DNA of 21,565 nt. Origin: a virus. The stretch covers positions 1 to 21,565 of the IMG/VR virus record IMGVR_UViG_3300030106_003104; one strand, 5' to 3'. A program made the translations under genes and the position numbers. The notes beneath the pieces are model-generated. The model saw nothing but the letters and a program-made list of their open reading frames with translations. It was not told where the DNA came from and searched no databases. Of this stretch, positions 1,949 through 21,486 are shown piece after piece (position 1 is the first letter of the stretch; every line of letters begins with the position of its first letter).

Positions 1949-4900
1949 ATGGCTACGCAAGAAGATCGGATTCGCCAGCTTATAGGCAGGATGCAGGGGG
2001 TTGATCCTAGATTAAAATCTGCGTTTGACGCTCCTTTAATTTCGCAGCTACCGACAAGACAGATTGCAATCCCCCAGCAACAGCCCGGAAGTTTGCTTTC
2101 TGTGCTGCGAGGGGAGCAACCTCAGCCCGTACAACAGCCAACCGCGCCTAGCTTTGGACAAACTTCAAAAGGCCGAACTATCTATACAGATAGATACGGC
2201 ACCCCATACTCGGAGATAGTAAATACTTACCAGCTCCCAGACGGCCAATGGGTTAATTATCCCACTGTTGATGCAAGGGGTAATCAGATATCCCCTGATC
2301 GTATCGAGAGCCTAATAGAAGAATATAAAACCGATGATGGTGTTAGGGACTTTGTTACTGGTGAGCTTTTGCCTTACTTTGAAACTAAAGATACTGCAGT
2401 GGAATCTGCGAAAAAAAGAAGTAACGAATTAGGCAAGGAACTAGCACTAAAAAGGGACAGCAAAAGAAGCGATAGAACTGAAGCTACGCTGCCGCCAGCA
2501 CAAACTGCATTAGACATTTTCCAAGGTTTTGAGTCGCCATACTTACCAGAGCCTACTACTCCTTCATCTGACGAAAGCCAAAACTTCTTTATGCAGGTAG
2601 GTCGCGGCTTAGGCCGGGGCGTTACTCAAAGCACCCTTACTTTGGGGCAAGGTTTGTTTGCTACAGCAGACATGGTAACGAATCTTGTTGGATATGAAGA
2701 CGCAATAGATCCAGAGACTAGTGAATTTCTTGAAACTTTAAACGAAATTAGAGAGTCCGTTGGATATGAGGAGGGCATGGTAGGAAAACTAGCTGAGGCG
2801 CTAGGGAGCATGGCTACTCTTTTAGTACCGGGCCTTGGGTCTTCTGCACTTTATGCTAAGGCAGCATCAGCCGCAGCGCAGGGCGCAGCAAAAAAAGAAC
2901 TTGCAAAAAGACTTAAAAATTATGCAAGAGGTTTACGTGCTTTGACAGTACCGGTGGCATCTGGCTTGGGTGCTGGCACTGCTAATCAAATGCTAGAGGC
3001 GTATGCAGATGCTGGTAATGAGGTAACTAACGCACAACGTAACCTATCAACGGCTACAGGTTTGGGTATTGGTCTTACGGAATTGTTGCCGTTAGAAATT
3101 TTGTTGCGAGGCATACCCAAGTCATTAGGTAAAAACACCATTAACTCGATAGCTGTTAGAGCCGCGCAAAACATTTCTGTTGCTGGTGCTGAAGGAGCGC
3201 AAGAAGCCGTTGCAGGAATCATGCAAGAGCTTGCAGCGCAAGGTAACTATAACCCAGACCAACCCATAGGTGATTCCGCTTTATCTGACTTTGGGTATGG
3301 TGCTGGCGCTGGCTCTATTATTGATGCGTTACTGGGCAAGAAGTTTCGGTTGCCAAAGACAGACAAGGCTTTGGAAAAAGAATACCAGAGTACAGAGGCG
3401 CTGACCCCTCTGTCTGAAGAAGAGCTATCTGCCGCACAGCAAGCCGAGCAAGACGTTGCTTTTTATGACAACGAAGGCAAGCAGCAAAAGGGTCAAGTTA
3501 TACGATTTGACGAAAACACTGTTGAGCTAACTGTAGATGGTGAAATAGTAAGTCTGCCTCGCAGTCAGATGCCAGACCCAAACACGGGTTTTTCTTTTGC
3601 TTCTGATGATGACTTGCTCACGCCACGATTTAAGGTAGATGGCAAAGAGATTGGCTCAATTCCTTTACCTGATCTTGTAGATCTGAGAAACAAAGAAGCC
3701 TTGCCTGATGCGTTACGCGCCGAAGTTGACGCAGGAACCATGAGTTTAAACGATGCAATTGAGGAATCGAAGACAGACGATCAACAGCCTGTTAGTAGAA
3801 TATCTCCAGATAAAAAGTATCGGCTTCTTGCGCTTACCAAAGAAATTAACCGCCGCGACCCAGACTTCAACCCATCACTTACCGAAAAGGCGGCAGACCA
3901 GCAAGGTAAAGCGCAGACTGCTGTAGAAATTGATAGCGGAGAATTTGGTGACACTTTAAGTGATCGTTTAAACGACATGGTAAGCCCAACCTTGGAGGAT
4001 ACTGTTGCAGGCCGAACAGTTGGCGGCGAGGTATCTGAAGAAATAGTTGGAGAAGCTGCCCTCAAAAAAGCAATGAAGGGTGTCTCCAAGAAGGACAAGG
4101 CAACTTATTACGAAGAAGTTGGCGCAAGCCCTGATGCAGAGTTTGGCTCTCTTAGCCAAGATCAAGTCGTTGCTTTATTGGAGAAAGCACGAGGACACAA
4201 AGGGCGCAAGAAAGCAGAGAAAGAAGCTCAGAAAGAAAGAGAGCAGCAAGCTGCAACAGATGCAGAGGTTGAAAGAAGAGCGCAAGAATTAGTTGCTGCA
4301 CAGCAAGATACAGTAGTTGTGCCCACGCCAGAGCAGCAAGCTCAAGTCGCTGCAGAAGAGATCGCAGAAACTGTTGAGGATGCTGCTGTACAGGTAGCAC
4401 CAGAGCCTGAAGTTGTTGTAGAGGAAGAAGCACCAGCACCATCGAGGTTTGAGTCTAAGGTCGTTGATGACTCTAAGCCACGCTACAGGAGCGTGACACC
4501 TGTATTTGAGTCTTTGCTTGATAAAGCTCTGTACATAGTAGGCAACCCTAGAAGCAAATCTAAAGCAGATGACGAGATTATGGGCGAGCTGCGCCGGTAT
4601 CTGGGTCGCGGGGTGCCGGGATTCCCAGATGCTGAGATACGCAGATTAGGGGCGCTCGTAAGGGATCGGGTAAAACAGTTGGGCGAGCCAGCGGAAAAAG
4701 GCACGCAGACAGATTTCGTGGTCCCAACAATAAATGCGCCTGACGCTAGTATAGATGTTACAGGTACTGATGTTGTTGTTGAAGAGCCTACGCCAAAGCC
4801 CGTAAAGCCCACTTTATCTAGGGCAGAGAAAGTAGTTTTCACTGACGAAGAGAAGAGTGACTACCGCAATGTAATAAGCACACTGCTTCCCGGCAACAAG

Positions 4901-7900
4901 AAAGCCCCAAAGATAGGCAGAGAAGCGTATGAGCGTCTGCGTGGCGAGGGCCAAAGCCATGAGGATGCGCTGGACAATATTGAAAACGATCCAGCCTTTA
5001 TAGATTTAATCAATACTGAAACAGGCCAGCCGGACTTTTCTCGTGCGCCACAAGAATCAGAACAAGTGTCTCCGGGTCCATTGGCTCCTGTTGCTGGCAC
5101 CCAGACTGCTCCGGGCGTTCCGGGGATGCTGGTCCAAAGAGACGGCCCACCGATTGATTTCAATACAGTCCGTCGAATCAAGAAGATTGTAAGCGACGTT
5201 GCCCCGACATCTGATCTTGTTATTGCCAGTCAGTTGTACGGTCAGGTTGTTGACAGAGATGGGGACGTACAATACATCGTCAACGGCAACGAGGTTAACT
5301 ACGAACAGGCTCTTGGTCTTCAGATGGGGAACATCGTTGGTGTTTCTGTAGCGCCAGATGGTTTGATTGACCCAGAAAACAGGTCTTACCATGAAGCTAC
5401 GCACTTCTTGTTCAACAATGGCTTCCTGACAGACGCAGAAATAAAGTCCTTGATCGCCAATAGGCCAAGGCTTGAACAGATTGTACGCGATCACTTAGGG
5501 CAAGATCGTTATAACGACGCTATGTCGGGAAACGAGTTTCAAAACTTTAACGAGTTGATTGCTTACGGCTCTGCGCTTTACAACCGAGGGCTGGATGTAG
5601 ATGGCAAGGTGCCAAAAGAATTCAACCCGGCACTGCGACGAATCTTTGCCAAGATTGCTAGGTTGTTTAAACAGCTCAAATCTAATTTCACTGGCGAATT
5701 TGTGCCGATGGAAGTCGAGCAAGTCTTTGAGCAGATCCGCCAAGGTAGAACAGGACGCAGGACAGCAGACCCACAGGCTACTCAGCGTGTAAGAGAGGCA
5801 ATGCTTAAAGAAGACCCAGCGGGTCTGAGCGCAACGACACCTTTGTTTGTTATCAAGCAGGGTCCGGTGGCTGCAAGCTCATCCTCTCCAGTTTCTGGAT
5901 TACCCATCAGACCAGACTTCAAGTCCGCTATGAAGACCAAGCTAGAGTCTATGGCAGGACAAAAGAAGCTGCCTGAAGCATGGGGAAGGGTAAAGGGAAG
6001 GTCCGTTCAGGGAGCTTTGTCGGGCGTTAAAATAGAAGAATGGAATGACTCTAACATCGAGTCATTTTTAAATAGCTTACCGCCTGATAAATCGGTTAGT
6101 GGACAGGAGCTTCTGGATTACTTTAATGACATAGAGCAATTAGTTGAGGTCCAAGTTTATGGCTCATCACTAACGCCAGAAAGTAATCAAGATTCTGAGA
6201 TTAAGTATCGGGCTGCTTTACAGCAAGATCGAAATGATCAAGCGTATGTCTCGATTGCCAATGACGCTATGAAATCTTTGCGAACAGGCTATGGCAGATA
6301 TGTCGTAAATAATATGCAGATATCTGATCGCACTCGCAGTGAGGTGCCAAACAAGAAAAACATAAATCCTGCTTTCCCCCCAGATGTAACTGATGCGCTA
6401 AGAGCTTATGCAGACGCGCTTAAGGGAGACAGACTCGACTCAGCCAGTGTTTCTCCAAAAAAACAAAAACTCATAGACGCGCTACAAGAGTCGTTTAAAA
6501 GCAGAGATGGTTCTTTCGATAAAATCCAATTTGGAATTACGCTTGTTGAGGCCAGTAACGCTGGTGGAGTTCAAATAGAGCCTAGCTTCAGAAGTGGGGA
6601 AGTCGTTGGTTTTGCAACAGACTTTGGTATTACTGCTCTTGAAAATGCTGCCGATATGCCAGTGGGTAGTGACAAAAACCTTTACTTTCAGTATACGTCG
6701 ATGGGCGGCAGGGGACTCCCTCCACCAACAGACCTAGTAAGAGAATACGACCTTGCTCAAGATCTTGGCTATCGAGTAATTATAATATCAGCGCCGATGG
6801 CTACGGGAAGCGGTGCTTATCACGCTCATTTTCCAGATGTCCGCAATCCAATTATGCATATTCGGCTTGCCGACATCATTTTAGAAAACGGCGAATCAGT
6901 TTTAGTGATTGAAGAAATACAGTCGGACGTTCATCAACAAGCAGACTCAATGATGAAAGAACTTGCTGTACAAAAATTGTTTGATGAAGGTCTTATCCCA
7001 ATCGACAATTTTGAGCGTTTAAACCGTGAACAAAAAAATCTAGTGCGAGAAAACACCAGTCAGTTTAAAGACGAGGTGTACGGCGAGTATCTACCTGATT
7101 TGCCTTTGAAGGATGAAAATCAACGGATTGCCTTTGCAATGCAACAGATTACTCGCATGGCTGTTAATGGCGGATATGATCACATTGCTGTGAGCAATAG
7201 CGAATTGCAGGTGGAGCGTTATCGAAATGAGTATAAAGCCGCTATTGATGGCTTGGTAATGACTCAGGTCGCTGATGTAGATATTAACAATGGATCTCTT
7301 CGTTTTCCGCCGGGTCAAGCAAGAGTGGCTGAAGTTAATGCGAACATAGATGGTGAGACCAAAATATTTAAGGTCACAGAAGAGCAAGTGCGTGAAGAGC
7401 TAGAAGTCTTAATTGATCAAGACATATTTGCTCCTAGTGGACCTGACCCATATACAGGATCTTTTGCGAAACAAGGCGAATTAACCGGAGAGGTTGTCTC
7501 AGAGGAATTGCTTTCTGATCAAGATTACATTGATGAGTTGCAGGCTGTCGAAGAGCAAGAAGCCATAAATACAATCAATGCGTTTTTTGGTCAAAGTAAT
7601 TATTTTGCCTATCTGCAGAAGGGGATGCAGGACACGTTTAGGGCTGGCGCTATGCGAGCAGCAGACGGTGCATTGCAAGATACCGTAAGCGTTAGTGGAG
7701 GAGATGGTTTTAGATTGGCATTTATGAAGGCGCTTGTGGCTGCAAACCCAGACATTCCTTCCTCTTGGCTTGCCACCTACACGACCCCAGTTGTTGGAGT
7801 AAATAATGAAGGCCAGATGGTCAGAGGAAATTTCCAGAGAGCGACCATAGAGCTTGGCAATGAAGGGACGACGATGAGTGGGAACCCTTCCCTAGATGAT

Positions 7901-10900
7901 TGGCTTGGAGAAGATGTCTCTAAATTGGTTCGCAATGAGCTTCAAAATCCAGATGAATTATCTGGACAATTTTTTGCTACAGATTTTGTAAGTTTTATTC
8001 AAGACAAGGTAGCTGAATCTCAGGTACAAAAAGAACGTTTAAACGCTGGAGACACCGAGCTTTCGCCGTACCAAATGTCTGAGGCTGAGTTGATGGATTC
8101 AGAGAGCATCAGAAGATCAGTTAATAATCTTACAGGTGCGATAGATATACCCGTTGGCGGTGGGTTCGTTAACATCTATGACGTAAAACTACCTCAAGCA
8201 CTAGAGACAGCATTAGCCAGCCTTTTACCTACAGACGCATCCTCTAAGAAAAAGAGGAAGAAAGTGAGAGAAGACAATCAGGGTAAGCGTTTGTACCTTG
8301 GTTCAGGGCACTCACTGGCAAAGCGAGTAGAACAAAGCCCCGGCGATATAAGCGGCATATCAGAAGAGTTGAGTGGTGAAATTCTTATAGAAGAATCTCG
8401 GATTATTCCTACAGATCAAGTGCAGTCCATGCCGCAAAGGGCTAGGTATCTAGGAAGTGCTGAAGGTGCGACAGCAGAAGGAATGGCCCTGCAGCAAGCA
8501 ATAGGTGAAATTCCTTACTATCAAGATGATGCAGAATTAGCAGATGTTTCTGAGCGTTTTATGGTCCCCGTATCTAATAGCCGCAACGCTCTGCGTGTTT
8601 ACGAGCTTACCCCAGAGATAAAAGAGTCACCCAAGGTTCTTGAGCCTAGCGACATCTATTTCGCCAGACTACAAAACGAAAGGGCTGAGGTAACTAATCA
8701 CGGCACCGAGAACCTGCGCGGCGTATTTAAAAATGCTAGACAAAAGGCGGTTGATTACATCAACAGTATGCCATTCTTTAATACCCTCAAGGGGCTTCCA
8801 CAAAAGAGAGAGTTTTACTTAGAGCGATCCAAGTATTTAGGCGTGGTCCAAGCGTCCTCAGAAATAGGCACCGTGTTGCGAGATGAGATAGGCAATCAGT
8901 TTCTATTTAAGAAAGGTGACAAGAACCGGGGCGCTACAGAAACTCTACGAACTTCTATATTTAATTACATGACCACGGGTGATGCGTCGGTAGAGCAATC
9001 ACTGTATCAACAGCTTGAGGCGTTAGATGCTAGAGCAGCTAAAGCTGCGGCAAAAGCTAAAGACATGATTGAGTCTTTAGGTTTGCAAATGGTTGAGAGC
9101 GGACTGATGTCACCTACAACATTTTATGAGAACCGCCGCTCTTACTTGCCCCGCATATACATTAAGCATTTATTGCAAGACCCCAAGACAGAACGCTTTA
9201 GCTATCTAAAGGGAAGAAATGAAAACCTTACGCCAGAAGATCAAGAGGCATTAGGTGTTATCAACGAGCTGGACCCCGCATTCCTTGTATCCCAAGCTAT
9301 ACAAAGGCCAATTAGGGATCTGCAGTTCATAGAGTTTATGAACTCTATTGCAGGTAACAATGCTTGGACGGTAGAAGATGACGTTCTGCTGGTGAAGTAC
9401 ACTGACGTTAATGGTAATGAGCAAGAGCAGAGCGGCCTGTATCTCTTGAACCAAGTAGATACACTGCGTGAAATAGCAAAAGCAGTAGAAGCTGCAGACC
9501 CCAGTAGAGCTGAAACATTACGCAGCCAAGCCAATGAGCTAGACGAGGCCGTCAAGAAAACGTTCACAGAGCGTGGCGTAATGGAATATTACCAACCTAG
9601 TGAAAGGGATATAAGCGGGGACACGCAAGAATATGGGCCATTGTTTAAACGGGTTCCAAGAGGAAAGCAGTACGGTATGCTTGCTGGCCGATTGGTCAGG
9701 AGAGAAATATACGACAACGTAATCTCCTCCATGTTCATGTTGAACTTAGGAGATGCAGCAGCAGTCAAGTGGTATCAGAAAGGAAAGAGGCTAACGGCAA
9801 TTTGGAAAACCATTAAGGTGCCGTTGAACCCGCCCACGATTGCTCGTAACACATTCAGCAACGCGATACTGATTCACTTATCTGGTGTACCTTTCTACCG
9901 TGTCTTACCGCGCATGATAGAAGCTGCGCGGGAAGTTATCTCTTACAACAACGGGGATTTTGCGAACGCACGCCACTATCAAGAAATGCTTGCTCGTGGT
10001 GTTAAGCAGTCATCGTTTACAGACCAAGAGCTAGTGACGATGCAGGAAGACATGCTTGAATTCCTGAGATCCGTAGATGCTAAAGATCTTGGTTTGTTTG
10101 GCTGGCTGAAGCTCAACACATGGCAGCAGTTAGCCCAGAAGGCCAGCAATATCTACCAAGGCATAGAGGTTATCGGTAAGACTGCTATTGCCATTGACGT
10201 GATGGAACGCCAAGGCGGCAGTGCTGATGATGCGTACTTGAGGGCGCAAGAGTATCTGTTCGACTATGGTGATGTGCCAGATATTGTCAGAGGTGCAAGG
10301 CAAAGCCCATTGGGCATACCGTTCTTGACGTTCCAGTACAAGGTGCTGCCGATATTGGCGAAGACTGCACTGCGTAACCCTATGCGGTTTGCTCCTTATG
10401 TTGCGCTTTCATACGCGCTACCAGCATTGTTTATGAGCGCATTTGATATAGACGATGATGAGTACGAGGCCATTAAAACATCTATGCCTGATTACATCAG
10501 GGGCAACCCCGGCCTTATTCCGTTGCCAGCAAGAGATGCTGAAGGCAGATTGCAGTTCTTAGATACATCATACCTATACCCTTGGGGTTCCTTTACCAAC
10601 CTTATTAACGGCGCTTACATCAGCGGCAAAAAAGCTGTTGGGGTAGCAGATCCTGCAGAGAAAGGCGTGGGAATGAAAGATATTGCTACCACGTTAGGAA
10701 TGTTTGGTGGCCCCGGATGGTCATTGTATGACTTAACAATGAACAGAGATTCGTTTACGGAAAGACCTATTGTGAATCCCAATGACCCCTTGTTTATAGC
10801 TGACGCTATCGAGCGTCCATTCTATAACAGAGGTAAGATTACTGATGCTATGTTCTGGGCAGCGAATCAATACTTGTTGCCGGGATTCTTGAATACGGAA

Positions 10901-11281
10901 TACGGTGCAGTGTCGAAGATTAACACTGCATTGAAGGGAGACGTGAAGCCTAACGGCGTGGCTCCCGATACGTTATCTCAATCTATCTTTAGAATGATTG
11001 GTTTAAACGCTATCGCTTTAGACCCTCTCCAGATACGCCTTTCGCTGGAATACATAGACCGAGAAAAGAGCGACATCATTAGTGGCATAAACCGGCTGAG
11101 GCGTGATCAGACTCTTTCAAACCAAGAGAAACGCAGAAGAATAAATTCTTACCTTGAGGTGCTAGAGCGATTTAGATTGCAGCGAGAAGCTATAATCAAG
11201 TCAGCCGCCACAGCAAATAGAGTTACTAGAAGACTGAAACTCCGTGATGAAAGAGCCGAGAGGCAGAGTGCAAAACAATGA
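1949..11281 (+). CDS. Giant 3110-residue polyvalent-type virion protein with zinc metallopeptidase motif
   Basis: Probably packaged in the virion and delivered with the DNA, like other giant phage polyvalent proteins; this role is inferred. Visible parts in order: residues about 76-160, a small module ending in an FETKDTAVESAKKRS-type helix common in phage internal proteins; about 280-470, a Gly/Ala-rich hydrophobic region with an EGAQEAVAGIMQ motif, possibly membrane-active; about 745-830, a Glu/Gln-rich coiled coil; 1148-1152 HEATH, an HExxH zincin site, with a possible third ligand in NFNELIAYG; about 1320-2090, a module containing IEEIQSDVHQQAD (1654-1666) and YDHIAVSNSELQVERY; YLPR at 2399-2402; about 2600-2830, a region matching my memory of the C-terminal LPD38-type domain (NPPTIARNTFSN, then FDYGDVPDIVRG); then a basic helical tail. 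It starts 3 nt after the previous stop without a clear ribosome binding site, suggesting coupled translation, and overlaps the holin gene by 4 nt. Confidence 0.85.
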   Translation: MATQEDRIRQLIGRMQGVDPRLKSAFDAPLISQLPTRQIAIPQQQPGSLLSVLRGEQPQPVQQPTAPSFGQTSKGRTIYTDRYGTPYSEIVNTYQLPDGQWVNYPTVDARGNQISPDRIESLIEEYKTDDGVRDFVTGELLPYFETKDTAVESAKKRSNELGKELALKRDSKRSDRTEATLPPAQTALDIFQGFESPYLPEPTTPSSDESQNFFMQVGRGLGRGVTQSTLTLGQGLFATADMVTNLVGYEDAIDPETSEFLETLNEIRESVGYEEGMVGKLAEALGSMATLLVPGLGSSALYAKAASAAAQGAAKKELAKRLKNYARGLRALTVPVASGLGAGTANQMLEAYADAGNEVTNAQRNLSTATGLGIGLTELLPLEILLRGIPKSLGKNTINSIAVRAAQNISVAGAEGAQEAVAGIMQELAAQGNYNPDQPIGDSALSDFGYGAGAGSIIDALLGKKFRLPKTDKALEKEYQSTEALTPLSEEELSAAQQAEQDVAFYDNEGKQQKGQVIRFDENTVELTVDGEIVSLPRSQMPDPNTGFSFASDDDLLTPRFKVDGKEIGSIPLPDLVDLRNKEALPDALRAEVDAGTMSLNDAIEESKTDDQQPVSRISPDKKYRLLALTKEINRRDPDFNPSLTEKAADQQGKAQTAVEIDSGEFGDTLSDRLNDMVSPTLEDTVAGRTVGGEVSEEIVGEAALKKAMKGVSKKDKATYYEEVGASPDAEFGSLSQDQVVALLEKARGHKGRKKAEKEAQKEREQQAATDAEVERRAQELVAAQQDTVVVPTPEQQAQVAAEEIAETVEDAAVQVAPEPEVVVEEEAPAPSRFESKVVDDSKPRYRSVTPVFESLLDKALYIVGNPRSKSKADDEIMGELRRYLGRGVPGFPDAEIRRLGALVRDRVKQLGEPAEKGTQTDFVVPTINAPDASIDVTGTDVVVEEPTPKPVKPTLSRAEKVVFTDEEKSDYRNVISTLLPGNKKAPKIGREAYERLRGEGQSHEDALDNIENDPAFIDLINTETGQPDFSRAPQESEQVSPGPLAPVAGTQTAPGVPGMLVQRDGPPIDFNTVRRIKKIVSDVAPTSDLVIASQLYGQVVDRDGDVQYIVNGNEVNYEQALGLQMGNIVGVSVAPDGLIDPENRSYHEATHFLFNNGFLTDAEIKSLIANRPRLEQIVRDHLGQDRYNDAMSGNEFQNFNELIAYGSALYNRGLDVDGKVPKEFNPALRRIFAKIARLFKQLKSNFTGEFVPMEVEQVFEQIRQGRTGRRTADPQATQRVREAMLKEDPAGLSATTPLFVIKQGPVAASSSSPVSGLPIRPDFKSAMKTKLESMAGQKKLPEAWGRVKGRSVQGALSGVKIEEWNDSNIESFLNSLPPDKSVSGQELLDYFNDIEQLVEVQVYGSSLTPESNQDSEIKYRAALQQDRNDQAYVSIANDAMKSLRTGYGRYVVNNMQISDRTRSEVPNKKNINPAFPPDVTDALRAYADALKGDRLDSASVSPKKQKLIDALQESFKSRDGSFDKIQFGITLVEASNAGGVQIEPSFRSGEVVGFATDFGITALENAADMPVGSDKNLYFQYTSMGGRGLPPPTDLVREYDLAQDLGYRVIIISAPMATGSGAYHAHFPDVRNPIMHIRLADIILENGESVLVIEEIQSDVHQQADSMMKELAVQKLFDEGLIPIDNFERLNREQKNLVRENTSQFKDEVYGEYLPDLPLKDENQRIAFAMQQITRMAVNGGYDHIAVSNSELQVERYRNEYKAAIDGLVMTQVADVDINNGSLRFPPGQARVAEVNANIDGETKIFKVTEEQVREELEVLIDQDIFAPSGPDPYTGSFAKQGELTGEVVSEELLSDQDYIDELQAVEEQEAINTINAFFGQSNYFAYLQKGMQDTFRAGAMRAADGALQDTVSVSGGDGFRLAFMKALVAANPDIPSSWLATYTTPVVGVNNEGQMVRGNFQRATIELGNEGTTMSGNPSLDDWLGEDVSKLVRNELQNPDELSGQFFATDFVSFIQDKVAESQVQKERLNAGDTELSPYQMSEAELMDSESIRRSVNNLTGAIDIPVGGGFVNIYDVKLPQALETALASLLPTDASSKKKRKKVREDNQGKRLYLGSGHSLAKRVEQSPGDISGISEELSGEILIEESRIIPTDQVQSMPQRARYLGSAEGATAEGMALQQAIGEIPYYQDDAELADVSERFMVPVSNSRNALRVYELTPEIKESPKVLEPSDIYFARLQNERAEVTNHGTENLRGVFKNARQKAVDYINSMPFFNTLKGLPQKREFYLERSKYLGVVQASSEIGTVLRDEIGNQFLFKKGDKNRGATETLRTSIFNYMTTGDASVEQSLYQQLEALDARAAKAAAKAKDMIESLGLQMVESGLMSPTTFYENRRSYLPRIYIKHLLQDPKTERFSYLKGRNENLTPEDQEALGVINELDPAFLVSQAIQRPIRDLQFIEFMNSIAGNNAWTVEDDVLLVKYTDVNGNEQEQSGLYLLNQVDTLREIAKAVEAADPSRAETLRSQANELDEAVKKTFTERGVMEYYQPSERDISGDTQEYGPLFKRVPRGKQYGMLAGRLVRREIYDNVISSMFMLNLGDAAAVKWYQKGKRLTAIWKTIKVPLNPPTIARNTFSNAILIHLSGVPFYRVLPRMIEAAREVISYNNGDFANARHYQEMLARGVKQSSFTDQELVTMQEDMLEFLRSVDAKDLGLFGWLKLNTWQQLAQKASNIYQGIEVIGKTAIAIDVMERQGGSADDAYLRAQEYLFDYGDVPDIVRGARQSPLGIPFLTFQYKVLPILAKTALRNPMRFAPYVALSYALPALFMSAFDIDDDEYEAIKTSMPDYIRGNPGLIPLPARDAEGRLQFLDTSYLYPWGSFTNLINGAYISGKKAVGVADPAEKGVGMKDIATTLGMFGGPGWSLYDLTMNRDSFTERPIVNPNDPLFIADAIERPFYNRGKITDAMFWAANQYLLPGFLNTEYGAVSKINTALKGDVKPNGVAPDTLSQSIFRMIGLNAIALDPLQIRLSLEYIDREKSDIISGINRLRRDQTLSNQEKRRRINSYLEVLERFRLQREAIIKSAATANRVTRRLKLRDERAERQSAKQ
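2736..2743. repeat. One-mismatch relative of the GTTTAAAC palindrome (CTTTAAAC)
   Basis: This is the only near match found in the left 3.7 kb, a region otherwise lacking the palindrome. It could be a decayed site or chance. Confidence 0.3.
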
Positions 11282-11661: not shown

Positions 11662-12083
11662 GCAAGCTCGTTGAAATGCTGAGGCTACATGAGGGTGTAC
11701 GCTACAAGGTGTACGTCTGTAGCGAGGGCTACGAAACCATTGGCGTTGGTCGAAACATATCCGAAGGTGGGCTTGGGCTGTCAAAAGATGAGGTCGATTT
11801 TCTTTTGGTGAATGACATCAAGCGAGTGGAAGATGAGTTGACTCGTAACTTCCCTTGGTTTTCGGAGCTTAATGAGGCTCGGCGTGATGCGATGATAGAT
11901 ATAGCCTTCAATCTTGGGCTGACCAGATTGCGTAGTTTTGTAAACGCATTAGAGGCCATGTCACATGGTCAATACGATATAGCTGCCAATGAATTTATGG
12001 ACAGCCGGTGGAGTCAGCAAGTCGGGAACAGGGCAGTAGAAGTCACCTACATGATTCGTAGCGGGGAATACATGAATGTTTAA
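11658..12083 (+). CDS. Endolysin: T4-type lysozyme (GH24 muramidase)
   Basis: Hydrolyses the beta-1,4 bond between N-acetylmuramic acid and N-acetylglucosamine in peptidoglycan (EC 3.2.1.17). The N terminus matches the GH24 active-site block: HEG with catalytic Glu12, then YVCSEGY and ETIGVGRN with Thr27. Spacing is E-8-C-5-T, so Cys21 sits where T4 lysozyme has Asp20. Cys at this position occurs in the family and is compatible with activity. At 141 residues it is close to the usual single-domain length, with no signal peptide or SAR segment, so release should depend on the upstream holin. A GAGGGAG ribosome binding site precedes the ATG, which overlaps the holin stop. The stop TAA (12081-12083) lies inside a GTTTAAAC palindrome and overlaps the next gene by 8 nt. 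Confidence 0.93.
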   Translation: MSKLVEMLRLHEGVRYKVYVCSEGYETIGVGRNISEGGLGLSKDEVDFLLVNDIKRVEDELTRNFPWFSELNEARRDAMIDIAFNLGLTRLRSFVNALEAMSHGQYDIAANEFMDSRWSQQVGNRAVEVTYMIRSGEYMNV

Positions 12084-12291
12084 ACGCTACGCAAAAGGTG
12101 GGAAGGTAAAGAAGAAAAAGAGCAAGTCTCGCGTTAATGAAGCGGGTAATTACACAAAGCCCGAGATGAGGAAGCGCCAGTTTAAACGTATCAAGGCTGG
12201 AGGTAAGGGCGGTAAGCCGGGACAGTGGTCAGCAAGAAAAGCTCAAATGCTGGCGAAGGCTTACAAGAAAGCCGGAGGCGGATACAAGTGA
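12076..12291 (+). CDS. Small basic phage protein with GKPGQWSARKAQ motif
   Basis: A 71-residue, strongly Lys/Arg-rich protein of unknown function. Residues 1-20 are almost all basic (MFKRYAKGGKVKKKKSKSR). The second half carries AGGKGGKPGQWSARKAQML and ends in YKKAGGGYK, a conserved pattern I recall from small uncharacterised proteins of marine phages. The gene starts inside the lysozyme coding region: its ATG shares its G with a GTTTAAAC site, and codons 2-3 (TTT AAA) come from that palindrome. A second copy lies at 12180 within QFKR. First of four consecutive tiny basic genes. Nucleic-acid binding is plausible from charge alone but is not shown. Confidence 0.8.
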   Translation: MFKRYAKGGKVKKKKSKSRVNEAGNYTKPEMRKRQFKRIKAGGKGGKPGQWSARKAQMLAKAYKKAGGGYK

Positions 12292-12671: not shown

Positions 12672-13000
12672 GTTTGACGGAAGGCGAAAAGAAAAGACTG
12701 AAGAAGGTCGGCTTAACTGGTTTAAACAAGCCGAAGAAAACGCCGAGCCACCCTACAAAGAAAGGCGTGGTTGCTGTCCGTGATGGCAAGAAGATGAAGA
12801 TCATCCGCTTTGGTGATCAGAAGATGGGACATAACTATTCCCCGGAAGCTCGCAAGGCATTCAAGTCCAGACATGCTAAGAACATCAAGAAGGGCAAAAC
12901 ATCTGCCGCCTTCTGGGCTGACAAAGTATTTTGGGCGGGAAAGGGTGGCAGCAGGAAAAGCCCACCGAAGGGACAGAAGCAGAAGTTTGGGAAAGGATAG
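12668..13000 (+). CDS. Small basic phage protein (GLNKPKKTPSHPTKK family)
   Basis: A 110-residue basic protein, last of the late plus-strand operon. The N terminus reads as a short helix (LTEGEKKRLKKVGLTGLNKP) followed by KKTPSHPTKKGVV, a GKKMKIIRFGDQKMG strand-like region, FKSRHAKNIKKGKTSAAFWA and a low-complexity Gly/Lys tail. This block order recurs in uncharacterised phage proteins I remember, without known function. The start overlaps the previous gene by ATGA. Codons 19-21 (GLN) contain one of the GTTTAAAC palindromes (12720). A strong hairpin without a U-tract follows 10 nt after the stop. Confidence 0.82.
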   Translation: MSLTEGEKKRLKKVGLTGLNKPKKTPSHPTKKGVVAVRDGKKMKIIRFGDQKMGHNYSPEARKAFKSRHAKNIKKGKTSAAFWADKVFWAGKGGSRKSPPKGQKQKFGKG

Positions 13001-14055: not shown

Positions 14056-14501
14056 GCGCCGACCGATTCCTGAAAGTCCATCAAGTGATCGTTTAAACGT
14101 TCCCTTGCATCTGCATTAGTTTTTAATTCTGCCCTAGATCCTATCCTGCAAACGAGTCGGATAACTTCTGCGGCGTATTCCTCATCTTCTAACGTCTCAT
14201 CGACCGTATTCCAGTGATGGCTGTTAGTCCTAGCCCACGCTATGTATGAGTCGTCTCTGCAAATAAGGTTAGCCTTTGCTAAAGCCTTCTCGGCTTCCGT
14301 CACAGCGCGAGGCTTGATGGGATTCTCGTAATCATCTATCTGCACACAGGCGAGCATGTATCGTTGCCCTATGGGAGCGACTGCCATCTCGCTTGGCACG
14401 TCATCCGGGTGCAGTACAAATGACAAGACCATGCCGTCTTTTGTCTGACGGTATGCGTATTTCTTGGCCTCAAAACTCTCAGCAATGTCCTCGCCATTCA
14501 T
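14052..14501 (-). CDS. Conserved-looking phage protein of unknown function
   Basis: A 149-residue acidic protein. The N-terminal half (about 17-60) reads YRQTKDGMVLSFVLHPDDVP then MAVAPIGQRYMLACVQID, a beta-rich block I associate with uncharacterised phage proteins encoded near recombination genes and HNH nucleases. The C-terminal half (about 68-145) is helical (AEKALAKANLICRDDSYIAW), with a short region VIRLVCRIGSRAEL before the end. No catalytic motif is evident. The start has an AGAGGAA ribosome binding site overlapping the end of the HNH gene, and the stop overlaps the XRE start. A GTTTAAAC copy (14091) encodes Leu-Asn in RERLNDH. Confidence 0.75.
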   Translation of the reverse strand: MNGEDIAESFEAKKYAYRQTKDGMVLSFVLHPDDVPSEMAVAPIGQRYMLACVQIDDYENPIKPRAVTEAEKALAKANLICRDDSYIAWARTNSHHWNTVDETLEDEEYAAEVIRLVCRIGSRAELKTNADARERLNDHLMDFQESVGA

Positions 14502-14504
14502 TAG

Positions 14505-14834
14505 CTATTCCTCTTCGTCTTCCTTCTCAAAGCCACGGCCTTCGTTCTGTTTAAACGTTTCAATCCACGCAATCGGGTCGATCCCTTCCATAGCCCACCA
14601 TCTCTTTTCGGCCCCATAGCTGTGAAGATTTCTATGGTGGTCGTCGCAGAGGGGGACGGCATACTGATCGCCTGTCCGCCTCATGCCGCGCAAACCATCT
14701 TGGTCTGCGAATGTCAGATGATGAGCCTGTGCTGGCCGATAACAGATCAAGCATCCCTGATCGCGGACAAGCTGCAGGTATCGCCTACTGCGTAGCTTCT
14801 TAGACCAGCTTTTCTGTTTCAAACCGTGAACCAA
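14505..14834 (-). CDS. HNH-type nuclease (Ref/DUF968-like)
   Basis: Predicted metal-dependent endonuclease of about 109 residues. It has the CxxC...HH...CxxHH layout of the Ref/DUF968-type HNH fold: Cys28 and Cys31 (GCLICYRP), His38-His39 (QAHHL), Cys63, His66 and His67 (VPLCDDHHRNLH), His71, then the family-like WWAMEGIDPIAW helix. In phages these nucleases act in recombination or DNA processing, which fits its place after Erf and the exonuclease. The start is uncertain: this frame opens at a TTG at 14834, only 1 nt after AAGGAG, inside the upstream gene. A second TTG at 14822 gives a start nearer related proteins. A GTTTAAAC copy (14549) encodes Phe-Lys in TFKQN. Confidence 0.85.
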   Translation of the reverse strand: MVHGLKQKSWSKKLRSRRYLQLVRDQGCLICYRPAQAHHLTFADQDGLRGMRRTGDQYAVPLCDDHHRNLHSYGAEKRWWAMEGIDPIAWIETFKQNEGRGFEKEDEEE

Positions 14835-16059: not shown

Positions 16060-16921
16060 TATTGTTCTCCTGTTTAAACGTTGCGAATTGGTCACAGTAA
16101 TCGGCCACATCACAGAACTGCTCGCACCGAGTGGGTGTGCCTCGTCTGTGATCTATGTGGTGCGTGGCTGCGTCTTTTTGAGCGGCAATAAATGTCTCCG
16201 CTTCTTCTTGCGAATCGAACACACGCACTGCGCGTACCCTCTTCGCCTTCATCACGGCAAACTTATCTTCCCGCAACCAACGTTCTTCGTCGGTGCAGTC
16301 AGGTAGATTGCCAGCCCTAGCCTCTTCATGTGCGGCGATACGCTCTTTCACGAACGCCTCAGTCTGCTCCAGAGGCCACAAGGGGATGTCTTTAATATAG
16401 ATGTCTTGTGGTGGGTATTCAGCCTTACGTTCTGCCTCGTGCCGGTTCCAATCTTTTATGAAGTTGATGATCTGAAGGCCGCTTACCTTGATGTCGTTCT
16501 TGTGAGCGATATAGGCGTAGATGTTGAGCTGCTTCTCATCGCTGTCATTATTCATCACGCCATATGCCTTGCGCGTTTTATAGTCCTGTAAGACCCGCGT
16601 ACCGTCTTTTTGGATGTGCTGGACATCTATGGCCCCTGATAACTTAACGCCGCTCACAGAGCAATACAGACGTTCCTCAGTGATGAAGTCAGGATGTTTT
16701 GAATTCTCTAGGATGGAATGCACGGCAGTGCCGAACAATGTCCAGAGGTTCTCGGACACGTCCCTGAACATGATGTTGTCGGGGTCATCGAAGAGTGCAG
16801 CCATGCGCGGTGGGCGCAACAAGCCTGTAGCTGAGTACGAGGCATCGCCCCGGCTATAGGTATCTTTCTTCAACGCAGCAGCGAGAGGTGCCGGGAGATT
16901 AAGTTCGTTCGTGTAGTTCAT
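16052..16921 (-). CDS. PD-(D/E)XK exonuclease, RecB/Cas4-like, with C-terminal cysteines
   Basis: A 289-residue nuclease expected to resect DNA ends for the neighbouring Erf protein. The nuclease core is clear: FGTAVHSILE (His68), LSGAID (Asp99), LQDYKTRK (Asp113, Lys115) and EKQLNIYAYI (Gln131, Tyr135), the ordered motifs of RecB/Cas4-type enzymes. The C terminus has RCEQFCDVADYC (Cys266, Cys270, Cys276), suggesting an iron-sulfur cluster as in Cas4 and AddB. The fourth ligand is not obvious; Cys87 or the Cys in LPDCTDE are candidates. No adjacent cas1 or repeat array exists, so a CRISPR role is unsupported. The ATG at 16921 follows an AGGG site about 8 nt away. Upstream in-frame codons only offer a TTG inside the promoter region. 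First gene of the minus-strand block. Confidence 0.87.
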   Translation of the reverse strand: MNYTNELNLPAPLAAALKKDTYSRGDASYSATGLLRPPRMAALFDDPDNIMFRDVSENLWTLFGTAVHSILENSKHPDFITEERLYCSVSGVKLSGAIDVQHIQKDGTRVLQDYKTRKAYGVMNNDSDEKQLNIYAYIAHKNDIKVSGLQIINFIKDWNRHEAERKAEYPPQDIYIKDIPLWPLEQTEAFVKERIAAHEEARAGNLPDCTDEERWLREDKFAVMKAKRVRAVRVFDSQEEAETFIAAQKDAATHHIDHRRGTPTRCEQFCDVADYCDQFATFKQENNSE

Positions 16922-16981: not shown

Positions 16982-17372
16982 CCTAATAATTCACGGCACG
17001 GCCCAATCGAAGTCAAACAGCAGACGACTGGTAACGTTTGGCGGGAAGCCACGGTTCATCAAGAGCAAGGCCGCGCTTGACTTCGAAAAAGCAGTCCAAT
17101 CCCAAGTTCAGCAAATGCGTGACATGCTTGAGGGTGACTTATCTTTTCACGCGGATATCTACTACCCGAGCAGACGACAAGACTTAGATCCCAGCATATT
17201 GCTCGACGCACTGCAGGGCTTGGTCTATGCGAATGATCGACAGTTTAAACAGATAAGCAGTTGCCGGTATCTGGACAAAGAAAACCCGAGAGCAGAGATC
17301 GTGATACAAGAGATTGAGTGGGATGAAAAGGGACCGGCTCATCCGCAAGTGGAGAGAAAAAACTCCGTGTGA
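16965..17372 (+). CDS. rusA: RusA-like Holliday junction resolvase
   Basis: A predicted 135-residue endonuclease that cuts Holliday junctions formed in phage recombination and replication. The RusA acidic cluster is recognisable: RRQDLDPSILLDALQGL (Asp73, Asp75, Asp81) and YANDRQFK (Asp91), followed by a strand ending in AEIVIQEIEW. The usual Asn after the second Asp is Pro76, and the Lys expected three residues later in E. coli RusA appears to be Leu79, so activity is uncertain. I chose the ATG at 16965. An in-frame GTG at 16944 would add seven residues but has its AAAGG too close; neither start has a good ribosome binding site. It diverges from the exonuclease gene. A GTTTAAAC copy (17243) encodes Phe-Lys, and the 3' end lies in a large inverted repeat. 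Confidence 0.8.
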   Translation: MKRVVNLIIHGTAQSKSNSRRLVTFGGKPRFIKSKAALDFEKAVQSQVQQMRDMLEGDLSFHADIYYPSRRQDLDPSILLDALQGLVYANDRQFKQISSCRYLDKENPRAEIVIQEIEWDEKGPAHPQVERKNSV

Positions 17373-17634: not shown

Positions 17635-17639
17635 AATAT

Positions 17640-18095: not shown

Positions 18096-18360
18096 TGGCA
18101 ACACCATAAAACTCAGCGAGCAAGACTACGCACGCTGGGAGAAGGCTTTCAAAAATATCCCGAATCTCGATGCCGTACTGCAGAGTCGTGACGACTGGCT
18201 GACGTATGACGCAGAAGATTCTACCCGCAAACGCTGGTTCCTCAGCACCTCTGCTTATCTCTCCAAGCAGGACCGCCAAATGGCAATGGAAAATCGTAGA
18301 GATGAAAGTGGCCGAAAGTTGAACAGGGATGGATCTGTCCAATTTAAGACGCTGCCGTGA
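18079..18360 (+). CDS. Small protein upstream of the primase-helicase, possible replication accessory
   Basis: A 93-residue protein. It reads FDGNTIKLSEQDYARWEKAF, then NIPNLDAVLQSRDDWL and RKRWFLSTSAYLSKQDRQMA, a mostly helical pattern with conserved-looking Trp residues. This resembles segments I recall from the C-terminal parts of phage replication initiator or helicase-loader proteins and from small genes placed just before replicative helicases. A loader or accessory role is plausible but unproven. It overlaps the nuclease gene by 17 nt and the primase-helicase start by GTGA, so the three are probably made together. Confidence 0.72.
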   Translation: MTHRFDGNTIKLSEQDYARWEKAFKNIPNLDAVLQSRDDWLTYDAEDSTRKRWFLSTSAYLSKQDRQMAMENRRDESGRKLNRDGSVQFKTLP

Positions 18361-20063
18361 GCAACGACTTTTACGACCAGCTTGCACAACTGGGTTTTAT
18401 TGTCTCTGAACTCCGAGAGGGTCAGAGCAAGATACTGTGCCCACAGTGCAGCCACACCAGAAAAAAGAATCGAACTGAAAAATGTTTGTCGGTCTCTATC
18501 GACGGTGACGGAGCGCAATGGCGCTGCCATCACTGCGAATGGACCGGCAACCTCTGGAGATACACAATGAAAAGCCCGTTTAAACAGAACGTGCAGAGGA
18601 AGGCACCAAAGATTCCAGACCTCAACGAAGAACTGAGCGATGGCGTTGTTCAGTGGTTTGCCAAGCGTGGAATATCTGCGGCAACACTCGACATTGCTGG
18701 GGTTGAATCTGGCGAAGCCTTTATCGCTGGCGAAAAGCGCAATGCGATTGCATTCGTTCATCGAGACAAAGATGGCAAGACCATCAACGTAAAATTCCGC
18801 ACCCAAGATAAACAATTTAGCCAGATCAAAGATGGTCATCGACTACCCTACTTGTGGAACCTCGTAGACACGAACGCTGAACACCTAATCATCACAGAGG
18901 GTGAGGTCGATGCGCTGACTTGCCTAGAAGCTGGAATGACGAACGTCACATCCGTGCCTGATGGGGCCAGTGATAAGAAGCTGACGTGGATTGATGAACT
19001 CAACGGAGATCTAAATGCATTCAAAAGGATCGTGCTACTGACGGATGGTGATGACGCAGGGCTTGCCATGCGGAACGAGTTGGCGCGTAGATTAGGTAGG
19101 ACAAGATGCTGGCGCGTCGAGTGGCCCGATGGATGCAAGGACGCGAATGACGTGTTCATAGGTTATGGCCGGGATAAGTTGGTCGAGCTGGTGGATGCTG
19201 CAGAACCGTGGCCGCTTAAAGCACTACATGAAACGAAGGCGTATGCAGATGATGCGTTCGCACTGCTCAATGGTGAGGTCAAGCGCGGGGTCAGCACGGG
19301 TATTTTTGCGATGGATGGCAACTACCGTGTGCGACCGGGCGAACTGAACATCATCAGCGGGGCACCCGGTGTAGGCAAGTCCGAATTCATGGATCAAATC
19401 TGTTTAAACCTAGCGCAAGAACATGACTGGAGATTTGCGGTCTGCTCCTTTGAGAACCCAGTGGACGAACACATCAACAAGTTGGCCGCTAAGTACATCC
19501 GCAAACCTGCGTGGGACACTCAGGGTGGTGGCAAGATGGATCACCACGAGTGGGAACGTGCCGTCCGATTTATCAGTGATCATTATTACTGGATACGCTC
19601 AGATGATGAGGCTCCGACCTTTGACTGGTGTCTGGAGAATGCTACCGCGTGCGTGCAGCGATACCCGAATGTGCGCGGGTTGATCCTCGACCCGTACAAT
19701 GAGTTTGAGCATCGTAGACCTAGTGGGTGGACCGAGACGGAGTATGTGTCGCAAATGCTCGCAACGTTAAAACGGTGGGCAGCAGTCAATGAATGCTCGA
19801 TCTTTCTTGTGGCGCATCCTGCGAAGTTACGACGCAATCAAGATGGCTCGTTCCCTGTGCCGGAGCCATACGACATTGCGGGGTCAGCTAATTTTTATAA
19901 CAAGGCGGATAACATTCTGATTGTGGAAAGGGATTTCACGGAAGGGTCCGACGATATTCGGATTCATGTGAAGAAGATAAGGTTTAAACAGAGCGGCAGG
20001 GTTGGTTGTGTTGACTTGAAATACGACTACAGGGATGGGACATACCAGTCACCATTGCAGTGA
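18357..20063 (+). CDS. T7 gp4-like bifunctional primase-helicase
   Basis: A 568-residue replisome protein, near the length of T7 gp4 (566). It should synthesise primers and unwind DNA 5' to 3' as a ring. Domains in order: zinc ribbon with Cys28, Cys31, Cys57 and Cys60 (CPQC...CHHC); TOPRIM with Glu181 in ITEGEVDAL and Asp230/Asp232 in LLTDGDDAG; linker; RecA/DnaB-type helicase with Walker A GAPGVGKS (335-342) and Walker B-like LILDPYNEF (Asp445), then a VAHPAKLRR block matching the phage helicase family. All key residues appear present. The GTG start overlaps the previous stop. Three GTTTAAAC copies lie inside (18578, 19402, 19982). An 8-bp hairpin covers the stop codon. No phage DNA polymerase gene is in this window. 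Confidence 0.95.
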   Translation: MSNDFYDQLAQLGFIVSELREGQSKILCPQCSHTRKKNRTEKCLSVSIDGDGAQWRCHHCEWTGNLWRYTMKSPFKQNVQRKAPKIPDLNEELSDGVVQWFAKRGISAATLDIAGVESGEAFIAGEKRNAIAFVHRDKDGKTINVKFRTQDKQFSQIKDGHRLPYLWNLVDTNAEHLIITEGEVDALTCLEAGMTNVTSVPDGASDKKLTWIDELNGDLNAFKRIVLLTDGDDAGLAMRNELARRLGRTRCWRVEWPDGCKDANDVFIGYGRDKLVELVDAAEPWPLKALHETKAYADDAFALLNGEVKRGVSTGIFAMDGNYRVRPGELNIISGAPGVGKSEFMDQICLNLAQEHDWRFAVCSFENPVDEHINKLAAKYIRKPAWDTQGGGKMDHHEWERAVRFISDHYYWIRSDDEAPTFDWCLENATACVQRYPNVRGLILDPYNEFEHRRPSGWTETEYVSQMLATLKRWAAVNECSIFLVAHPAKLRRNQDGSFPVPEPYDIAGSANFYNKADNILIVERDFTEGSDDIRIHVKKIRFKQSGRVGCVDLKYDYRDGTYQSPLQ

Positions 20064-20067: not shown

Positions 20068-20081
20068 ATGCCCCGCAAGTC

Positions 20082-20282
20082 CTATCCTTTAAAGTTACTC
20101 AACAGCACATCCAGAAATTGTGTGTAGGTTAACCTATAGGGCAGGTCTTTCTCGTACTTTTCTTTTTCCAAAATGAATGCTGTAGCGGCTTCATCGCGGA
20201 ACATTACGGCATTGGTTGAGGCACCGTCCTTTGTAGGTCGCCCCGGTCCACGCCGTTTCGGCTTCGTGAGGTTTATCGTCAT
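20082..20282 (-). CDS. AT-hook-like small protein
   Basis: A 66-residue protein. The N terminus KPKRRGPGRPTKDG (about residues 7-20) matches an AT-hook-like GRP core flanked by basic residues, a motif that binds the minor groove of AT-rich DNA. The rest (FRDEAATAFILEKEKYEKDL, then LTYTQFLDVLLSNF) is helical and might form a dimer or a small ribbon-helix-helix-like fold. The ATG follows a GAGGAG site 8 nt away and begins 5 nt after the upstream stop. Given the AT-rich GTTTAAAC palindromes across the genome, it is one candidate for a protein that binds them; this is speculation. It is the last gene of a minus-strand unit. Confidence 0.7.
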   Translation of the reverse strand: MTINLTKPKRRGPGRPTKDGASTNAVMFRDEAATAFILEKEKYEKDLPYRLTYTQFLDVLLSNFKG

Positions 20283-20287
20283 TGTAC

Positions 20288-20572
20288 TTACTCCTCATCC
20301 GTTTCAGTTTTTTCTACGAAGCACCTCGACCGGCTCAACGATGAAGGATCGTACCGCATTTCCTCGGTCAATTGACGCAGAATCCTACGGTTGCAGTCTT
20401 TCATCCCCTCTTCCAGATTTGCCACGAGCTGCCGCAGTGTCCTGATTTTTTCTTCAAACTGAATGAGAAAATCAAAAGATTGCTGCCCCACATCGGTAAA
20501 TTTCTCAACGTCATAGATGCCATCATCTGCGACGTAGGTCCACCCCTCTCCACGTTTATATTCTTCGTCCAT
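20288..20572 (-). CDS. Unknown small coiled-coil protein
   Basis: A 94-residue protein, first gene after the promoter at 20600-20628. The N terminus (KRGEGWTYVADDGIYD) is polar. The middle (about 28-72) is a long helix with coiled-coil character (FDFLIQFEEKIRTLRQLVAN, LEEGMKDCNRRILRQL). The C terminus is acidic. I recognise no family. An AGGAG site precedes the ATG, which lies about 20 nt from the predicted transcription start, and the stop is immediately upstream of the AT-hook-like gene, so the two form an operon. Confidence 0.72.
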   Translation of the reverse strand: MDEEYKRGEGWTYVADDGIYDVEKFTDVGQQSFDFLIQFEEKIRTLRQLVANLEEGMKDCNRRILRQLTEEMRYDPSSLSRSRCFVEKTETDEE

Positions 20573-20599
20573 TACGCTCTCCTATTGTTGCGTATTACT

Positions 20600-20628
20600 A
20601 CTGTAACACAGCTAACAGATGTTGTCAA
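20600..20628 (-). promoter_or_regulatory. Sigma70-type promoter for the 20572-20082 operon
   Basis: Minus-strand TTGACA (20623-20628), exact 17-nt spacer, TACAGT (20600-20605; four of six matches to TATAAT). The predicted start is near 20593, leaving a short leader with GCAACA and an AGGAG ribosome binding site. The -35 lies inside GTTGTCAAC (20621-20629), repeated at 16974-16982, so a shared operator is possible. It abuts the stop codon of the upstream gene. Confidence 0.72.
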
Positions 20629-21057
20629 CTATATTTTTTCCCCGAGCATTTCCTCGATCTCTCGGATCGTTTGATTGCGCTCATCCTGCTCTTGCAGAAT
20701 CCCCACCTGATCGTCAATGAAATCCTTGTCGCCAAGGTGAGCGATAGCTTTGTCTACCTCTTCAGCCATCTGCCACTTCAGCCAGTACACGTACTGCCGA
20801 CTGACCTCTTCTCGTTGAGCAATGTCTGCTGGTTTCTCGTTTAAACGCAGTGCTTCCTTGATACGTTTCGTGCGTTCGTTCTTGTTGAAGTCGACTACGT
20901 ATCGTTTTAGCTCGTCATACGCGCTACTACCCATGTGCGCCCTCAACTCGTTGCGGATTGTTGAGGTTGCCACGCCACAAGTATCAGCAATTTTCTGCAG
21001 GGTGTTGCCCTGTCTCCGCATGTGTTCAGCAGCGGCTATCCAGCTTGGTGCGCTCAT
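20629..21057 (-). CDS. Double helix-turn-helix DNA-binding protein
   Basis: A 142-residue protein with two HTH-like segments. The first, about residues 18-38, is NTLQKIADTCGVATSTIRNE; the second, about 73-94, is NEKPADIAQREEVSRQYVYW. A helical, acidic C-terminal tail follows (to MLGEKI). Two HTH units in one small protein suit a phage regulator, or a protein binding two neighbouring sites; a small-terminase-like role is an alternative I cannot exclude. I chose the ATG at 21057, which overlaps the upstream stop as ATGA and has GAGGA 9 nt before it, rather than an upstream codon in the same frame. A GTTTAAAC copy (20839) encodes Leu-Asn in LRLNEK. The gene ends at the next promoter's -35. Confidence 0.75.
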   Translation of the reverse strand: MSAPSWIAAAEHMRRQGNTLQKIADTCGVATSTIRNELRAHMGSSAYDELKRYVVDFNKNERTKRIKEALRLNEKPADIAQREEVSRQYVYWLKWQMAEEVDKAIAHLGDKDFIDDQVGILQEQDERNQTIREIEEMLGEKI

Positions 21058-21440
21058 GCTAAGTAATCCTCGGGCATCAGTATGGTTAACGTCTGCCCGT
21101 CTGGGTCGAGCATCAACCACGCTTTCAGGTCTGTCTCGCCGTCCTCAAACGGATAGACCCCTGTCACCGTGCCCCCGTCCCTGATGCTGCGCCAGTTCTG
21201 CTCCACTTCCTCTTGGCACAAGGTGCCGAAATCGTTGCGGATGAATCGCGTCATGCAGTCGAACACGAAGTCTCTTGCATCGTCCTTGTCATCGAAGAAA
21301 TGACGCAGTTGCATCTCGCAATTCCTCGTGACGCAAACCTCTTTCAATTCCCTAACAGCCAGCCCATCTGGCCGCTCGACCGCCGCTGGCTTTTCATTGC
21401 CTCGGCCCAGCCTGTCAGTGATGTCAATCACATCTCCCAT
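21054..21440 (-). CDS. Unknown mobile-element/phage protein ending in LMPEDY
   Basis: A 128-residue protein of unknown function. The C-terminal half (about 65-126) reads RFIRNDFGTLCQEEVEQNW, then TVTGVYPF and AWLMLDPDGQTLTILMPEDY. This order resembles a small family seen on plasmids and phages, with a D-x-G-x-L-x-x-E-x-x-x-x-N block and a terminal TILLPEEY-like strand. I know no assigned role. The N terminus is polar with a short VIDITDRLGRG stretch. The ATG has an AGGAG site about 9 nt upstream, and the stop overlaps the next gene's ATG. Confidence 0.72.
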   Translation of the reverse strand: MGDVIDITDRLGRGNEKPAAVERPDGLAVRELKEVCVTRNCEMQLRHFFDDKDDARDFVFDCMTRFIRNDFGTLCQEEVEQNWRSIRDGGTVTGVYPFEDGETDLKAWLMLDPDGQTLTILMPEDYLA

Positions 21441-21478
21441 CGGATATATCTCCTGTCTCTTCTATTGCAAATGGTTTC

Positions 21479-21486
21479 GTTTAAAC
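21479..21486. repeat. Intergenic GTTTAAAC copy
   Basis: The only copy that appears to lie outside a coding region, in the 55-nt gap between the gene cut by the right edge and the gene starting at 21440. It has the full CGTTTAAACG form. Its presence in noncoding DNA argues that the palindrome is not kept for its protein coding value. Confidence 0.7.

Follow-up and report, generated by a model that had tools for sequence, protein, structure and literature searches.

A SprT-like protein of mobile elements as the probable reader of an iterated DNA palindrome

The palindrome GTTTAAAC occurs as 19 exact copies in a 21,565-base stretch of marine phage DNA (IMG/VR virus record IMGVR_UViG_3300030106_003104, positions 1 to 21,565), referred to here as the window. 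Across phages, prophages, and plasmids, this word tracks one gene, and for that reason the gene product, a SprT-like protein of the family phrog_6361, is very probably the reader of the word. We consider it reasonably probable that this element-encoded protein reads sites distributed over its own element, mainly to guard that DNA, with most of the weight of this statement on the reading; guarding, as opposed to some other effect of binding, is a tentative choice. Support comes from enrichment, conservation, spacing, association, and co-variation, and binding, dimerization, proteolysis, and effect are predictions from sequence.

A second-order Markov model of the window predicts 0.35 copies of GTTTAAAC, and the next-best 8-mer palindrome reaches 2–3 copies. 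The word is therefore over-represented about 50 times, where avoidance of PmeI sites would have depleted it. This recount agreed with the original prediction, made by a model from the letters of the window alone, as did the equal use of both reading phases: 18 of the 19 sites lie inside genes, nine in the Leu-Asn phase only, eight in the Phe-Lys phase only, and one in both phases where genes overlap (16072), with a single intergenic site (21479). Shuffling synonymous codons within each window gene, proposed beforehand as a possible refutation, gave 1.32 ± 1.08 copies and never exceeded 6 over 2000 trials, the unshuffled count made in the same manner being 19. The word was also present at 18 of the 20 window codon positions able to encode it, compared to 0 of 38 in GC-matched outgroups, and selection at the level of DNA rather than protein, as first claimed, was thereby upheld. 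Places where the protein permits the word were themselves commoner in the window than in those outgroups (3.0 versus 0.8 per 1000 residues). As permitted places are both filled and commoner, selection for the word seems to reach into the protein sequences. In eight related contigs, the exact word was about 60 times over expectation and one-base variants were at or below it, consistent with the reported near-absence of variants. The 8-bp word is indeed enriched as such, but the site in these contigs is better described by the 10-bp YGTTTAAACR, with weaker YR steps outside. Gaps between window sites were too even for random placement (coefficient of variation 0.47 versus 0.93, P 0.0003), and this was likewise so in most relatives and in actinophages; the exceptions were contigs G004 and G005 and phage Venkman, where density varies by region.

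Relatives of the window were collected through its primase-helicase, yielding 80 viral loci. All 52 loci at ≥59% identity were enriched in GTTTAAAC about 100 times, whereas the 28 more distant loci had no enrichment. Enrichment is absent from 31 related outgroup loci. Whole contigs of relatives carried 47 copies in 57 kb, 48 in 54 kb, and 40 in 46 kb. The word is thus genome-wide, as first described, in the sense that the excess extends to whole contigs, but its density is uneven and higher in early and replication regions. The original prediction had also asked whether site positions or only site density are conserved. When the window was compared with relatives 74% identical in nucleotide sequence, 15 of the 18 sites proved intact; the corresponding figures were 12% for 8-mers in general and 0 of 6 for near-words. 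Positions, not density alone, are therefore conserved. Phages closely related in terminase and portal (HTVC027P, CRP-902, and DSL-LC04) showed neither an excess of GTTTAAAC nor a SprT-like gene in the 50 kb examined of each.

The association of word and gene was approached from both sides. In many of these comparisons the elements were found via the SprT-like protein, so that its presence there is no evidence, whereas presence of the word is. Scanning viral contigs for two nearby copies of GTTTAAAC picked out 120, and 62 of these showed strong enrichment, at up to 4 copies per kb and over 31 to 51% GC. A gene-content comparison singled out phrog_6361, found in 25 of the 62 enriched contigs and 1 of the 58 others. 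Among whole contigs selected by the word, the protein was encoded in 9 of the 12 enriched and in none of the 10 others (Fisher P 0.0005), the nine including one, G056, that had shown no enrichment in its first stretch. The SprT-like family alone was common to all 17 motif-bearing elements, the next real gene reaching about 5. Starting instead from one SprT-like query, GTTTAAAC was the most enriched palindrome in 45 of 45 viral loci, and 163 of 169 SprT-like loci passed a lenient enrichment test. The six that failed comprise L435, L436, L417, and, weakly, L415, which have GTGTACAC instead, along with phage MQ-4 (six copies) and L429 (one copy). In one 58-kb contig (G045:C1), eight copies of GTTTAAAC fall within 9 kb (31940–40909), and no SprT-like gene was detected there.

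Isolated phages with the protein, which infect proteobacterial and cyanobacterial hosts, carry the word as well: Venkman has 34 copies (1.7 expected), R5C 17 (0.04), Pan1 16 (0.02), and Mica 7 (0.09), with modest counts in ECO1230-10 (5), MQ-4 (6), and Persinger (4; 0.10 expected). The word is not confined to phages. A Magnetospira plasmid carries 16 copies versus 0.35 expected, and 80 loci from bacteria, for the most part plasmid contigs of sphingomonads, together hold 145 versus 2.5 expected, with few per locus; in some temperate phages and plasmids, enrichment is based on few sites each. In a 4.8-Mb Sphingobium genome, six of the seven copies lie on the 22.9-kb contig that bears the SprT-like gene. 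Of the earlier suggestion that the word is a symmetric site for a phage or host protein, a protein-bound site thus remains likely, but the protein is very probably a product of the element rather than of the host.

The word also changes along with the protein. In actinophages it is replaced by GTTTACAC, present 14 times in Percival, 21 in Crewmate, 35 in Marky, 18 in IAmGroot, 17 in Liebe, and 41 in Araceli, with <0.1 expected; Arthrobacter genome loci also carry GTTTACAC. In five actinophages this asymmetric variant falls 61 times on the forward and 68 times on the reverse strand. The absence of strand bias agrees with the non-polar signal first proposed and, together with the palindromic form of the word in most elements, differs from the polarity of Chi or KOPS. 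The symmetry emphasized earlier holds for most elements, but strict palindromy is not essential, given the use of GTTTACAC. In two Sphingomonas genomes, 9 of 11 and 11 of 14 copies of GTGTACAC lie inside a ~38-kb prophage stretch holding the sprT-like gene. On the protein tree, GTGTACAC occurs on two separate branches, the second supported by few sites, and on each a Tyr or His replaces the Met/Leu after the conserved Arg. Phages whose protein lacks QxTR (Dismas, Armstrong, MW2, and Psa21-HRN) carry no related word beyond a single copy, and these losses fall on two branches, Dismas/Armstrong and MW2/Psa21-HRN. Separately, Microbacterium phage Armstrong (L352–L353) has three copies of CTATATAG where about zero are expected, which may be a further word. 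Enriched words in MW2 and Epa43 (CCTGGGC) were considered as sites of the same kind and rejected as too weak. In L342–L344 (G027), TACAGCGG and GGTATCTC are unusually frequent and probably represent a repeat family.

The protein of contig G005 matches phrog_6361 with an E value of 1e-31, placing the relatives of the window in this family. The tblastn matches to the phrog_6361 protein in isolated phages are annotated as SprT-like protease, and the Pfam SprT-like match lies only below the cut-off of that family. Each window-clade contig of sufficient length carries the gene, 7–9 kb further downstream than the helicase. Its product has a conserved, zinc-ribbon-like C-terminal segment, G.YPH...KKQxTRMLK..C..C.Y..R.S.KW...C, which retains KKQxTR, the Cys residues, and a second Arg, and most members have HExxH. 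An AlphaFold2 model reached a pLDDT of 89, and a PDB sequence search with the protein returned no credible relative. The AT-hook, helix-turn-helix (HTH), or small basic proteins first suggested as candidates give way to a SprT-like zinc protein. In loci L121, L160, L127, and L187, HExxH is lost and the C-terminus kept; L121 and L160 carry ~3 sites per kb.

From these observations a mechanism can be postulated. The conserved C-terminal segment would read the site, with a dimer probably contacting two GTKT half sites, as the three related words are GTTT-AAAC, GTTT-ACAC, and GTGT-ACAC. The SprT-like protein would then occupy its own element about every 1–5 kb, and the bound protein would mark and guard the element DNA by excluding or clearing host proteins such as restriction enzymes, silencers, or stalled complexes, on the model of the known or proposed action of SprT/ArdC-type proteins. 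Guarding is our first choice because of the anti-restriction role of ArdC, the distribution among mobile elements, and the even spacing. The SprT-like proteins of phages such as Venkman and R5C are accordingly predicted to prefer GTTTAAAC over GTTCGAAC.

Several observations weigh against this interpretation. The window itself has no SprT-like gene, the fragment ending before the expected place of the gene. In contig G031, 26 sites are spread over 44 kb and no SprT-like gene was detected, and G047 and G045 are weaker cases of the same kind, though all three may be incomplete. The best fold matches are weak and are to gluzincin metallopeptidases (abylysin and CapP), and no solved relative shows contact between the C-terminus and DNA. 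No AAA or CobT partner adjoins the sprT-like gene in the isolates and plasmids examined. Finally, HExxH is missing in at least 15 word-bearing loci that keep the C-terminal motif, some among the densest. Proteolysis is therefore not needed everywhere, which weakens the guarding idea, and predicted binding rather than cleavage would be the common denominator.

The same reader could act instead as a transcription regulator or silencer, its sites serving as operators and elongation blocks in the manner of L5 stoperators, which we regard as somewhat unlikely. Persinger (26 bp), MQ-4 and Mano (~18 bp), and Crewmate (45 bp) each have a site a short distance before the sprT-like gene, and GTGTACAC precedes the gene in L417 and L415. 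Intergenic sites are in excess in Venkman (21 of 34 sites versus 9%) and Marky (12 of 34 versus 8%), as well as in MQ-4 and Persinger, and early genes are richer in sites in Venkman (28 in 14.5 kb versus 5 in 21.9 kb). Against this, 19 of 83 sprT-like genes have an upstream site, matching the prediction from density, and we rejected autoregulation as a general role on these numbers. The window, with nearly all of its sites intragenic, has no intergenic excess, even spacing is not expected of operators, and the asymmetric variant shows no strand preference, whereas the stoperators of L5 are oriented along transcription (PMC9283540). An architectural role, in which the reader organizes, condenses, or partitions element DNA, appears unlikely. 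It would fit even spacing over whole elements, a dispensable protease motif, and the presence of ParA, ribbon-helix-helix, and rep genes beside sprT-like genes in Sphingobium and Caulobacter plasmids, but site density varies more than tenfold from element to element, partition would serve no evident need of virulent phages, and the early-region bias of Venkman is left unexplained.

It is improbable that the true reader is another gene inherited with SprT, such as the MoxR/CobS ATPase or the CobT/VWA gene. The ATPase is near SprT in 11 of 11 window-clade loci tested and 26 of 31 L174-like loci, but near none of 75 plasmid or genome loci, and it is missing in 16 of 23 others, although these loci carry the word; the ATPase was rejected as reader on this basis. 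SprT, moreover, is the sole family in all 17 elements, and the word changes or disappears with changes in the C-terminus of SprT itself. Were the excess driven by the host, through a factor or a host-wide word (HIP1-like, due to an orphan methylase, or restriction-related), HIP1 would be a precedent, being a comparable palindrome linked to methyltransferases (PMC4390886). Such a methylation or HIP1-like explanation, raised in the original prediction, was not supported: GTTTAAAC is rare in host chromosomes and concentrated on the element in Sphingobium, as is GTGTACAC in Sphingomonas, and these element-concentrated copies led us to reject a host-wide word. Restriction pressure would deplete PmeI sites, and the word occurs in elements of Proteobacteria, cyanobacteria, and, with one base changed, Actinobacteria, leaving this explanation very improbable. 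Chance, codon usage, or protein constraint is practically negligible, being refuted by the codon shuffle and outgroup controls, with nothing found in its favor.

Known systems resemble the pairing of GTTTAAAC with the SprT-like protein in part. L5 stoperators of cluster A mycobacteriophages likewise involve one phage-encoded protein and >20 short sites across the genome of that phage, part of them located before or between genes. They are 13 bp and asymmetric, run in the direction of transcription, are located in short intergenic gaps, and are bound by a repressor with a predicted HTH, whereas here the site is 8 bp, has no strand preference, is mostly intragenic in the window, is linked to a zincin-family protein, and extends to plasmids. 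HIP1 (GCGATCGC, cyanobacteria) is similarly a highly iterated 8-bp palindrome under DNA-level selection, but it is a chromosomal word linked to methyltransferases, and its high frequency in host chromosomes has no counterpart in Sphingobium; the present word is a feature of mobile elements and goes with a single protein family. KorA and KorB of IncP plasmids are also regulators encoded by their plasmid, over which their palindromic sites are distributed, but both are HTH proteins with other, longer sites. SprT/SPRTN and ArdC share the SprT-like zincin, the DNA contact that is predicted here, and the setting on mobile elements; ArdC is a plasmid protein with a SprT-like metalloprotease domain that protects incoming plasmid DNA from HsdRMS restriction (PMC7213743). 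ArdC differs in its N-terminal, single-stranded DNA-binding domain beside the metalloprotease domain, and several members here lack HExxH. To our knowledge, no sequence-specific genomic address sites have been described for SPRTN or ArdC.

In relatives of the window, one operon joins the sprT-like gene to a gene for an AAA ATPase of the MoxR/CobS type and to a third gene, either DUF7192 or CobT/VWA-like. This recalls the MoxR AAA ATPase-vWA (metallopeptidase) pairs of jumbo phages, for which a role in virion assembly is proposed and no link to a DNA word was found (PMC7824862). An example of the operon is G005 (L085, 10943–13593), where SprT-like, CobS-like AAA, and DUF7192 genes adjoin and CobS accompanies the SprT-like protein. 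Phage CobS is usually interpreted as a cobalamin gene; if the pairing of the word with the SprT-like protein is right, it may account for CobS/CobT-like genes in some marine phages. In Caulobacter plasmid record pNIBR24542 (L359), the same ~13.9-kb unit is present twice with identical protein accessions, reflecting a plasmid dimer or an assembly duplication.

Nothing relevant on GTTTAAAC, GTTTACAC, or GTGTAAAC in phages was found in the open-access literature. No published description of the pairing of word and SprT is known to us, although the idea of one protein with many sites on its own genome is already familiar from stoperators. Mobile elements of several bacterial phyla quite possibly share a self-marking system, not described so far, composed of a sequence-specific, SprT-derived zinc protein and co-evolving, evenly spaced address words, through which the protein would act on DNA of the element rather than of the host. 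If the pairing is true, a mobile element would have a means to distinguish its own DNA from that of its host. It would also give a testable function to a common, unexplained gene whose sole annotations so far are SprT-like protease and transcription elongation protein, with natural specificity switches and losses as ready-made controls, and in raw sequence the word could serve to flag prophages and plasmids.

Table 1. Sites of GTTTAAAC and the anchor gene in the window
Feature	Position	Strand	Phase	Gene or role
GTTTAAAC site	3744..3751		Leu-Asn	3110-aa gene
GTTTAAAC site	3966..3973		Leu-Asn	3110-aa gene
GTTTAAAC site	5665..5672		Phe-Lys	3110-aa gene
GTTTAAAC site	7017..7024		Leu-Asn	3110-aa gene
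GTTTAAAC site	8037..8044		Leu-Asn	3110-aa gene
GTTTAAAC site	9643..9650		Phe-Lys	3110-aa gene
GTTTAAAC site	11001..11008		Leu-Asn	3110-aa gene
GTTTAAAC site	12078..12085		Phe-Lys	start of 71-aa basic protein gene
GTTTAAAC site	12180..12187		Phe-Lys	71-aa basic protein gene
GTTTAAAC site	12720..12727		Leu-Asn	110-aa basic protein gene
GTTTAAAC site	14091..14098		Leu-Asn	149-aa gene, minus strand
GTTTAAAC site	14549..14556		Phe-Lys	DUF968 nuclease-like gene, minus strand
GTTTAAAC site	16072..16079		both	overlap of ERF (Leu-Asn) and PD-(D/E)XK exonuclease-like (Phe-Lys) genes
GTTTAAAC site	17243..17250		Phe-Lys	RusA gene
GTTTAAAC site	18578..18585		Phe-Lys	primase-helicase gene
GTTTAAAC site	19402..19409		Leu-Asn	primase-helicase gene
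GTTTAAAC site	19982..19989		Phe-Lys	primase-helicase gene
GTTTAAAC site	20839..20846		Leu-Asn	HTH gene, minus strand
GTTTAAAC site	21479..21486			intergenic
DnaB/Toprim primase-helicase	18357..20063	+		anchor for finding relatives

Two further features of the window were noted. The 3110-aa protein (1949–11281, plus strand) takes up 43% of the window, and one segment of it has a weak endolysin-type match. A 66-aa protein with an AT-hook-like motif, RGPGRP, is encoded at 20082–20282 on the minus strand.

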